Assembly: GCF_000003815.2 (NCBI RefSeq)
Contig: NC_049980.1
Coordinates: forward strand, 395,084 to 459,083
Direction of reading: 5' to 3'
Source: Branchiostoma floridae
Lineage: Eukaryota; Chordata; Leptocardii; Amphioxiformes; Branchiostomatidae
DNA length: 64,000 nucleotides
Shown: positions 35,301 through 41,300 of the stretch, one piece after another
Numbering within the stretch: the first letter of the stretch is position 1
Layout: each line of letters opens with the position of its first letter
Notes under the pieces: model-generated
Database searches by the model: none
Told to the model about the DNA's origin: nothing
What the model saw: only the letters and a program-made list of their open reading frames with translations
Position numbers and translations under genes: made by a program

Positions 35301-38300
35301 CTTTACACGACTTTCCTCACTTTACTCGGTCGAAATTGAGTACCTAGCTTTGGCTAGGGCCGTCCCTTGGATAGGACGTTAAATGGAGGTCCCGTGTTTG
35401 GGCACGTGAAAGAACCCACCACGTGTGCGATGGTGCGGTGTGAGCGGATCAAACCATTCCGGCCAAAGTGGGATGGGGGATTTCCCGAGCAGTCTCGTAA
35501 CCCCTGCTTTATAGAGTCAGTGAAGTCAAGCTTGCCTAAGATTGATGTTTCTGACTTAGGGAGAAGAAATGCTGCTACAGTTATCACTATGGGCCGCTCT
35601 GCATCTTCATGATGGTAACATCAGGCCCTACGAACCCGATTTAGAAAAAAAAGACTGTCATATTAAAGACAGTCACATTCAAGAAAGGTGTTATTGAAAC
35701 ACGTTAAGTGCGCATACCTCCTGATGCTGCATCAGTAGATCTTTACGACTTAGGAATTTAGATTAGATTTATTAGTTTTTAGATGTCACAGTCTTAAGGT
35801 AGCCACCTGATTTAGGATCTATTACATTAGAATTGATGAACAGATACTGATCTCCAATATTGTTACTAAGATACTAATCTCAAGTACAGTGTAATTTTTT
35901 GTTCAACATGTTTTTTTTTCTTATTCATTTTGTCCCGGATTTGCCATGGTCCATATTCCTGAATGTTAATTACTTGCTTACAGTAACTTTTCCGTAATGA
36001 TATCAGTTTTGCATAATTCGTCCATATCTTTTGATAATGTAGTCAATAAGGATTCAGAGTGGTAAGTTGTCTTTGATTGGTCCATTGTCACCGAATAGTA
36101 GTTTGCGACTCTCCTGTATGAATGAATTGTCTCTGAAAGGTCTATATTCCAAACATATATTAGGAACTTGTCCCTGATTGGTCCATATTCCTGACATGTT
36201 AAGGAACTTGTCCCTGATTTTTCCATACCCCTGACATGTTAGGAACTTGTCCATGATTGGTCCAAATCCCTGACATGTTTAGGTACCTAGTGACACCCCT
36301 GATGGGTGCAGACCTGAACAACATCGTGAAGTGTCAGAAGCTGACAGACGACCATGTACAGTTCATTGTCTACCAACTGCTCAGAGGACTCAAGGTACAT
36401 CTTAGGCACTTTCTAAGACAACATAAAAACATACTTCACAACTCTTTCTCCAATCTCCAAACAGATGTTAATATGATGGAAAATTTGTATTTTCAAACTT
36501 TGGATGAATTAGTCTGATGGTATTTTCTGTGCTCTTTTTTGTCTTCTACAGTACATTCACTCGGCTGGGATCATTCACAAAGTAAGTATTCCATTTGATG
36601 TTAGTTTGATGAAAACTAATGAAATTTTATCTGAATTCATCATAGAGAATATTCCGAGTACAGTAGACTTTATAGATAATTATCATATAGCCAGGCGCCG
36701 CGGACCAATCAGAAGGCCCCGTTCAATGTTGCTTATGACGCAGTAACATATAGATTCCGGCCAGGCTGGTGTGTTCTCTCTTTCTGATTGGTCAGAATGA
36801 ATCGACACCGGCACCGTTGTCGATTTGCATCGACACCGGCTTCGCTCACTCGGTGGTTTTATTCGGTGGTTATAGCAAAGGACCAGGCGTTATGACACCA
36901 TATACACCTCGGGGCGGGTCATTAACCCTTAATTATACCAAATGTTTACTAGAATCATAAGGAACCGTCTACTCACTGTCAGAAACCTACTTAAAACATG
37001 TTCATTCTATGTCTTGAAACAAGTACAAAAAAAAACATGTATTGTTAACGTTCACATGTAGTAATCACTTTGTATAGCCTTATAGCGTTTACAACTAACA
37101 ATTATTCTATAGCCGTACATAGAAAGCATTGGAATATTACATATACCCTAGATAGAATATCGCAGATAGTACGAAAGTTATCCATATATTTTGTTGCCTG
37201 CAAAACCTAGGTCAGACAACAAACCTCATGTATCGACAAATGTAATGTTGTTATTGTACATTGTACAGTTACCAGGGCTAGCTCTTGATAATAGCCTTCA
37301 GCGAGTTGGGGCTAAGCCCTGGCTGTATTTCTCACTATACAGCCGAATAAATCAATTCAAATCAAATTAAGGTTTCATCAATCACATCGANNNNNNNNNN
37401 NNNNNNNNNNNNNNNNNNNNNNNNNNNNNNNNNNNNNNNNNNNNNNNNNNNNNNNNNNNNNNNNNNNNNNNNNNNNNNNNNNNNNNNNNNNNNNNNNNNN
37501 NNNNNNNNNNNNNNNNNNNNNNNNNNNNNNNNNNNNNNNNNNNNNNNNNNNNNNNNNNNNNNNNNNNNNNNNNNNNNNNNNNNNNNNNNNNNNNNNNNNN
37601 NNNNNNNNNNNNNNNNNNNNNNNNNNNNNNNNNNNNNNNNNNNNNNNNNNNNNNNNNNNNNNNNNNNNNNNNNNNNNNNNNNNNNNNNNNNNNNNNNNNN
37701 NNNNNNNNNNNNNNNNNNNNNNNNNNNNNNNNNNNNNNNNNNNNNNNNNNNNNNNNNNNNNNNNNNNNNNNNNNNNNNNNNNNNNNNNNNNNNNNNNNNN
37801 NNNNNNNNNNNNNNNNNNNNNNNNNNNAAAGTTTTTTTTTTTGGAAAAGGTAAGTTTGGAAGGGGGCCACCAGAATTTATTTTGACCTTGATGCGCTCCA
37901 ACAAAAAAGTTTTTTTTTTGGGAAAAGGAAGTTGGGAAGGGGGCCACCAAAAATCATGCTTAACTTGAATGCATTACAACAAAACAGGTGTGTCTTTGGG
38001 AAAAGGAAGGTGGGTGGGGGGGCAGCAGAAATCAATGCTGACCTTGTTACACTACAACAGAACAGGTGTGTTTTTGGGGAAAGGGAGATGGGGAGGGGGG
38101 CAGCAGAAATCATGCTGAACTTGATGCACTACAACAAAACAGGTGTGTTTGTGGGGAAAGGGAGGTGGGGAGGGGGGCAGCAGAAATCATGCTGAACTGG
38201 ATGCACTACAACAAAACAGGTGTGTTTGTGGGGAAAGGAAGATGGGGAGGGGGGGCAGCAGAAATCATGCTGAACTTGATACACTACAACAAAACAGGTG

Positions 38301-41300
38301 TGTTTTTGAGCAAAAGAAGGTGGTGGGGGGGGGGGCAGCAGAAATCATGCTGAACTTGATGCACTACAACAAAACAGGTGTGTTTGTGGGGAAAGGGAGG
38401 TGGAGAGGGGGCAGCAGAAATCGTGAAAGGATGGCCAAATAACCAATAAGGACATCCTTTGTAATTGGATATGAGAACCACCTGCCTGCTCGCTCGGTGG
38501 TATCGCCCGTCATTCAGTAGCGAGCGTCGCCTATACAGCACTGGCAAGGAATCGGACATAGAAAAACATGACCCATTTCAGAACTTTACAAATAATCTTA
38601 CACACCAATGACCTAATCTCTCACACACGAATGACCAAACGCAAAAAGCATTACTGCACCCAAGGGAATTGTGCTCTCTGGAAATAAAAGGAGGTTTTCT
38701 TCTAAACCTTAAGGCTTATCAATTACGCTCTCGAAAAAAAAAGATTAATGGGAACATCTCAACTTTTCCACTTTACACTTTATGGACGCCTTTTCCAACG
38801 CTTTTATTACAAGCACGCATGCCCCGAGAAACGAAAGAGGCTTCTTCCAACGCTTTACAGTACAGACACGGTTAATTGACAAAGTCTTGTAACAATGACT
38901 CACCACTCTATGATAAAAACGTGGGCTGTTTTCCAAATCTTACACTTTACCCTTTACAGACATGGCATCATCTTAGCACACAGGCCCTGAAAAAACTGAG
39001 GCTTATTTCCAAATCTTACACTTTACACTTTACAGACACGGCATCATCTTAGCACACAGTCCCTGAGAAAAAACCGAGGCTGTTTTTCCAAATCTTACAT
39101 TTACACTTTACAGACACGGCTCATTAAACCACCACAAAAGTTTTTTTTTTTTACATTTACACTATTCTCCCAGCAGATCAGATGGTAGCTTAAGATAGTA
39201 TCAAAAGCTGCCAGAGGGGTGAAGACGGCCTATTGGTGACTTTGGCAAATGTACAACTCTTGACTGACTACACTCCTTGGCCAGTTTTGTACTATCTTAT
39301 GCTATCATATGATCTACTTGGAGATTAGGGCAGCAGTACACTACTACTAAACAATGGGTATTTTCATCTGGTTTATATCTGAATGATGACCTCTTTCTCT
39401 TCCTCTGTAATACAGAAGAAAACACAACAATATATAAACATTTATGTATAATTGATGTTTTAGTTTATGATTTTTATTTAAAATCCAGCATTAGATTTTA
39501 CAGGTTTTGAATAGCCAAAATCCGTTCTGTTTTACCATTTTTCTACTGCTGTTTCCTTCCTACTCTGTACTTTTCCAGCCTTAAAGTACATGTACCTGTG
39601 TATCTAGCTGCTCACTGGACGACCTCTCTTCCCGGGAACATTTCTGATTCCCTGTCTTTCACTCATTCCTTCCTGATTACTCTGCTATCAAAAACTGTTG
39701 GCTTAGTTATAGGAAAGTGTGTGTATGTTGAATTGATAATTGATTGATCTGACATAAAGACATGCCCCATAAAGCTACAGATAAACAGCTTATGTTTGAT
39801 GGCCAGCTACAGGCAGATTGACAGCTACAGATTGACTGACATTGTCATGTGGCTGTCAGTGACAGCTACATGTACAGATTAACAGTTAAAGATCAATTGT
39901 GAGCTATAGCTTGATTGACAGATTGACAGTCACAGTTTGACAGCTGCAGATTGATTGACAGCTGCAGATTGATTGACAGCCACAGATTGATTGACAGCCA
40001 CAGATTGACAACTGTAGATTGCTTGAAAGCTACATATTAATTGACAGCTACAGAATTATCGATATTTACAGGTTGATTGAAAGCTACAGATTGATTGATA
40101 ATGTGATTCACGGTCACAGACTGATTGACAGTCACACAATACGATTGACAGTGGTTGATAGTTAAATTATACATATAATTGACAGCTTCAAGTTGATTTA
40201 CAGTTACAGAATAATTGACAGCTCCACCTATGCATGCTGTGCCGTTTGTATTGCATGTAGTTGACATCTCTGCTGTTTGTTTTGCAAAAAATTGTAGTTG
40301 ACATCTCTGCTCTTTGTGTCGCATGTAGTTGACATCTCTGCTGTCTGTGTTGCATGTAATCGGCATCTATGCCGTTTGTGTTTGCATGTAGTTGACATAT
40401 TTTCTGTTTGTGTTGCATGTAGTTGACATATTTTCTGTTTGTGTTTGCATGTAGTTGACATATTTTCTGTTTGTGTTGCATGTAGTTGACATCTGGTCTG
40501 TAGGATGCATCATGGCTGAGCTGCTGATGGGGAAAGCCCTCTTTCCAGGAACCGATCGTATCCTTTCCAACAACCGTAGTGTAAACATTTCTAGCTCAGC
40601 AAGACAAGCTGCAGACATGTGACAAATACCTTACATTCTGTGTTGGGGGGAGGGGGGCATCATTTACTGTTGTTGGAATCATCATGACTGTTTTTATTCT
40701 GTAAATAGCTTCGTACATAGACTTGTTTGTTTCACCACCTAAATATTGTTACCAGGTGGCAAGGTTTTAGCCTTTCCTTTGGCGTAATGCCACTACTTGC
40801 CACAATGTGGTAATGTGAAAGAAAGATTTTTCCCAGTACTACATGTAGTGTTGAATTTGTTAGCTGTGAAACTCATGCCAGCAACTTTATTTCACTCCAT
40901 GTATAGATAAATTCTCTAGAGCGTTTTCATGTGATGTCATATAGGAACACCAACATAGAGTTCATGCAGTGATTTGTACCGTTTTTGGACATCTAGAGAT
41001 ATTTTCATGACAAAACAGCCTTGATTTGATTTGATCAGTTCAAAGATAAGAATAATTTTCCAGCTACAGTACACTGAATTGCAAATAAAGGACACCAACA
41101 TGGACACCTACACACTTTATTGATTTCTGAAAATAATTTAATCAGGCTGATAGATCATAGGACATAAGAATTTTCTTTTACACAACTAGTTCTTCTCACC
41201 TGCTGACGTTTCGATGTCTGACAGACATGGAAACGTCAGCAGGTGAGAAAAACTGGTTGTGTAAAAGAAAATTCTTATGTCCACTTTATTGATGTTGCTG

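Follow-up and report, generated by a model that had tools for sequence, protein, structure and literature searches.

A p38 kinase gene that holds several copies of the end of one of its own exons, most of them with a splice donor, poses a simple question: are the copies alternative coding cassettes, or has an exon–intron boundary been duplicated and is it now removed with the intron? We examined such an array in a 64-kb stretch of DNA, referred to here as the window, and compared it with a paralogue on C5 and with the rest of the genome (513 Mb searched, 431 contigs).

The p38 gene and its missing exons

The gene spans 26174–45123 on the + strand and was assigned to the p38 kinases by the protein of its exons 1–5, which matched PDB MAPK14 chains (best E 4.4e-77); an NCBIfam scan of its 3′ exons returned 0 families. 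Exon 1, with the start codon, lies at 26174–26304 and is followed by exons 2 (28643–28772), 3 (35124–35182), 4 (36283–36394) and 5 (36552–36581), and then by an assembly gap of 437 N (37391–37827). Beyond the array, the gene continues with exons 9B (40486–40557, donor GTATCCTTTC), 10 (41724–41803), 11 (42093–42171), 12 (44056–44229) and 13 (45049–45123), the last with the stop codon, all on the same strand. A remnant of a duplicated exon 9, exon 9A, precedes exon 9B at 39608–39639 (+) and carries an internal deletion. Elsewhere in the window, a single-exon gene at 49957–51090 looks GPCR-like by eye.

Outside the gap, the 64-kb window yielded neither exon 6 (48 nt, DLKPSN...) nor the authentic exon 8 of 115 nt. 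A functional kinase requires both, and the C5 gene has both, from which we infer that the gap at 37391–37827, whose length may be only an estimate, holds them; exon 8 and the exon before it are probably located there. Over 262 shared codons, the window and C5 p38 genes differ with dN 0.044 and dS 0.260 (ratio 0.17). The window gene, array apart, is under purifying selection, and an intact exon 8 should therefore exist.

Composition of the array

Run on the 64-kb window, TRF reports one array at 37837–38422, with period 78, 7.5 copies and a score of 745. Cut at the duplication joint, the array yields seven full units and a partial unit at each end, which bears out the initial annotation of a p38 exon segment repeated in tandem at least seven times; it begins at the gap edge, 37828, rather than at 37864 as then given. 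The full units span 37873–38416 in total and measure 77, 78, 78, 77, 78, 80 and 76 bp, so that the unit length of 77–80 bp first put forward nearly holds (measured range 76–80 bp).

All units lie on the + strand. The 5′ partial unit (37828–37872), which adjoins the gap edge, and the decayed unit 1 (37873–37949) have no GT donor. Units 2 (37950–38027) and 3 (38028–38105) have broken frames, with GT at 37988 and 38066, respectively. Units 4 (38106–38182), 5 (38183–38260), 6 (38261–38340) and 7 (38341–38416) keep the frame, the donor (GT at 38143, 38220, 38298 and 38378) and the AG before the exon-derived part, as had been recognised earlier for four units. The donor CAG/GTGTGT is identical in six of the seven full units, in agreement with the GTGTGT donor already described. 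Units 1–3 are more divergent than units 4–7, and unit 7, the last, is not divergent; long T runs and lost donors occur in the units closest to the gap, and units 1–3, lying near it, may hold sequence errors.

The exon-derived part of a unit is 37 nt long (EIMLN(W/L)(M/I)HYNKT plus G), or 38 nt in units 2 and 3, and not the 39–40 nt with a leading proline proposed at first: in the intact units the bases preceding GAA are intron-derived GCA, and the proline is not exon-derived there. A further 39–43 nt come from the intron. They contain the G-rich tract and the CAGCAG of what had been described as a 38-bp spacer; tract and motif are indeed present, but the length differs and CAGCAG is ordinary intron. 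At the joint between units, GGCAGCA/GAAATC, one base, G, is common to both parental sites. A strict G-quadruplex pattern occurs in two of the seven units and also in the C5 unit, which is suggestive only as regards the cause of the slippage.

After unit 7, the stub of an eighth unit (38417–38422, +) is cut by an insertion at 38423–39327. The insertion consists of two dispersed repeats (query parts ~113–711 and ~741–905), the second with inverted ends, and has at least 137 genome matches, with 40 of 2355 candidates scored. Past it, the original intron (GGCAGCAGTACACTACTAC...) reappears at 39328 and runs to 39576 (+), aligning to the C5 intron right after its single unit.

This intron carries two arrays, one at its donor end and one at its acceptor end. 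The acceptor-side array, made of 31–37 bp units (40240–40494, +) with the acceptor and the first exon 9B bases, places seven copies upstream of the exon 9B acceptor (40486), one of which has TAA instead of the TAG acceptor. The end phase of the exon 8 segment (ACA-G), previously joined to TT-GAC of exon 9, is right for exon 9B.

The C5 paralogue and the competing readings

The C5 p38 gene is collinear with the window gene and aligns with it through exons and several introns. Its exon 8 is a single copy of 115 nt, followed by the intron start gtgtgtctggggggtaagggaggtggggaggggggcagcagtacactactac with the same G-rich sequence; there, CAGCAG is no acceptor but belongs to the intron, which continues past it. 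Judged against C5, the repeated unit is the last 37 nt of exon 8 plus ~40 nt of the next intron. This correspondence, with CAGCAG intronic, makes the array a tandem duplication across the donor site, and it directly shows the reading to which the initial annotation leaned, in which the units derive from the 3′ end of a longer exon. As a DNA query against the whole genome, the array found two places, the window and the single C5 unit (95%). A protein search of the same genome for a third p38 copy with the missing exon gave 52 matches among the best-scoring candidates, and only C5 matched exon 8 (86%).

Two side observations concern these p38 copies. A 61% match to the p38 query (L003, C11:7772726–7773025) lies within an open frame of 563 residues and is possibly an intronless MAP kinase. 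In the C5 gene (L002), exon 9 is duplicated (joined C5 coordinates 21887–21958 and 22719–22790), both copies having a U12-looking donor, GTATCCTT. With dS at 2.1, where synonymous sites are near saturation, and dN at 0.058, the pair looks old and kept.

Boundary-spanning minisatellites of amphioxus have been described as ‘mirages’ in the available text of PMC3087553 and PMC3902484, and the p38 array is very probably one of them, an exon 8 end and intron start that were duplicated, multiplied and are spliced out as intron. A stretch of about 78 bp, reaching from the last part of exon 8 into the start of the next intron, would have been duplicated head to tail, and the unit would then have been amplified via slippage or unequal exchange. 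Provided that the gap upstream holds the authentic exon 8 and that the donor of this exon is used, the entire array is intron and would be removed as such. The extra donors would be mostly silent; use of one would lengthen exon 8 and, in the frame that we followed, run into a stop ahead of the first intact donor.

The initial annotation had also offered a bank of mutually exclusive 13-residue P+1-loop cassettes. Units 4–7, with frame, donor and AG kept in four of seven copies and with exon parts that differ little, are what such a bank would lead one to expect. In C5, however, the segment forms the last part of a 115-nt exon, and CAGCAG belongs to the intron; the tract before CAGCAG is G-rich and not made of pyrimidines; and a 37-nt cassette would require an extra exon ending mid-kinase, of which C5 has none. 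Two of the seven frames are broken. Leu (TTG) stands in six of the seven units where the C5 paralogue has Trp (TGG), the residue at the matching position in all five PDB MAPK14 alignments shown, and Trp is kept in unit 5 alone. Substitutions relative to unit 4 number 17 in the exon parts and 26 in the intron parts across the seven units (binomial P 0.17), with no significant excess of conservation in the exon parts; the counts for units 4–7 alone, 2 and 8 (P 0.07), lean weakly to coding constraint. The cassette bank was rejected on the C5 paralogue, the broken frames and the missing acceptor, and is almost certainly wrong.

Alternatively, the donors might compete and be partly used, extending exon 8, producing stop-containing transcripts and letting the length of the array tune p38 output. 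Six identical, strong-looking donors are consistent with this, as is the stop met in the frame that we followed: frame 0 from 37828 reaches a stop at ~37966, ahead of the donor at 37988, so that the array would offer no sensible longer protein in this frame, whether or not the 5′ partial unit is the authentic exon end. Haplotype length differences and somatic instability are reported for other mirages in the available text of PMC3087553, but the Adh3 data and globin RT-PCR given there suggest that regular splicing is undisturbed, and we consider partial use very unlikely. The idea may be extended to both arrays of the exon 8–9B intron. If both were length-unstable, each individual or tissue could carry its own competing splice sites, and the arrays would form a repeat-length dial that sets the amount of p38 transcript mis-spliced and lost; this is very improbable. 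An assembly artefact, in which misjoined reads near the gap created the copy number or the entire array, would fit the position of the array beside the gap, the long T runs and lost donors of the nearest units, and the misassembly of one globin mirage in a genome draft (available text of PMC3087553). Against it, interior units differ among themselves and the 3′ end of the array is cut by dispersed repeats, neither of which would be expected from simple read duplication, and like arrays recur in other genes. An artefact is very unlikely.

Boundary arrays elsewhere and relation to known systems

Arrays of the same build as the exon 8 duplication are present at exon 9B of this p38 gene, as described above, and in other genes of this genome. 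In Adh3 (L026), a published mirage case, TRF places arrays at exon boundaries, including 59 bp × 6.9 and 33 bp × 9.8. A JNK gene (L045, C3, minus strand), identical to a PDB MAPK10 chain at 48 of 48 residues, has a mirage at L045 6441–6698, a 61-bp × 4.1 array that holds the acceptor and ~39 nt of the DLKPSNIVVKSDC exon. In the reverse complement of the same locus, three homologous exon copies lie at ~3286, 3856 and 4484, with GTATCCTT after two of them and GTATCCTC after the third; they are a possible three-way mutually exclusive set. A typed query of a lancelet-type fluorescent protein gave 68 exon matches on C4, C17, C14 and C3, with up to 88% identity, and these, together with Adh3 and its boundary arrays, indicate a cephalochordate genome, as in the published mirages. 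The Pfam GFP model gave 0 matches against the genome, and the controls of that search were equally silent. Fluorescent-protein genes were also seen with partial exon copies beside an exon (L028 1122–1193; L037 1252–1427).

A survey of splice junctions, at a repeat score of at least 16, showed no enrichment of straddling repeats at junctions (11 of 149, vs 181 of 3000 random positions). For fluorescent-protein junctions the count was 6 of 105 (Fisher P 1.0 vs random positions), some of the 105 being duplicated exon pieces and not authentic junctions. By gene, straddling repeats were found at three of four Adh junctions and 2 of 40 p38 junctions, which were chosen and not random, with the exon 8 donor array excluded. 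The survey is rough: fluorescent-protein and Adh exon ends were placed from tblastn ends, and four exon-merging matches were dropped. Window and C5 junctions compare as 4 of 20 and 0 of 22 (Fisher P 0.04), but these counts were hand-picked at a lowered threshold and are not relied on. With no excess at junctions, the findings are most simply explained by an abundance of tandem duplications in lancelet introns, placed without regard to exon borders.

Lesser repeats were observed at two further boundaries of the window gene. The exon 12 donor region (44229) has one imperfect copy ~110 bp downstream, near 44340. At 36127–36283, repeats of 39–40 bp reach the exon 4 acceptor and have related repeats at C5; they score only 15, and are possibly an old, degenerate mirage.

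With p38, and also JNK, the short list of amphioxus genes that have boundary-spanning minisatellites grows, and in the case of p38 a clean, unduplicated paralogue serves as reference. One intron with arrays at both ends should make a good natural test of how the spliceosome chooses among near-identical sites. Boundary arrays of lancelets can pass for banks of alternative exons.

The nearest system by gene family is that of mutually exclusive exon clusters, such as exons 6a/6b of MAPK8/9 (available text of PMC8329584), where kinase-domain exon sequence is likewise repeated in a MAP kinase gene. Such clusters consist of whole exons with their own acceptors, with the frame kept in all copies and coding constraint upon them. 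The p38 units, in contrast, are exon ends without acceptors, hold 37 of the 115 exon nt, and include several decayed copies with neither a frame kept throughout nor significant constraint. The layout of the duplicated C5 exon 9 resembles the interlocked U2/U12 arrangement that the same text gives for exons 6a/6b. Also related is a model, cited in the available text of PMC3087553, in which introns are gained when exon sequence containing AG-GT is duplicated in tandem. The array units could in principle supply new splice sites; unlike in that model, no new intron is shown at the p38 array.

The closest likeness is to the mirages themselves. Published cases are Adh3 and the globins BflGb6 and BflGb9 (PMC3087553), with PGBD5 and troponin C added by PMC3902484. 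As far as the available text of these two papers goes, mirage units measure 10–160 bp, splice dinucleotides are kept in many but not all copies, and inner copies are homogenised while edge copies diverge. The p38 array is alike in being a lancelet tandem repeat whose unit spans an exon–intron boundary, at the donor or acceptor side, and in which many copies retain splice dinucleotides; its 76–80 bp units fall inside the published range. It differs in that a single p38 intron holds both a donor-side and an acceptor-side array, at opposite ends. A paper on p38 of B. belcheri (Zhu 2014) is cited in the available text of PMC9846432, and no published account of the p38 array was found in the literature searched, mostly papers outside subscription. 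p38 is a new gene among the mirages, by a likeness known here from the sequence of a single assembly, and its array is most likely a new instance of these published lancelet structures and not a cassette bank.
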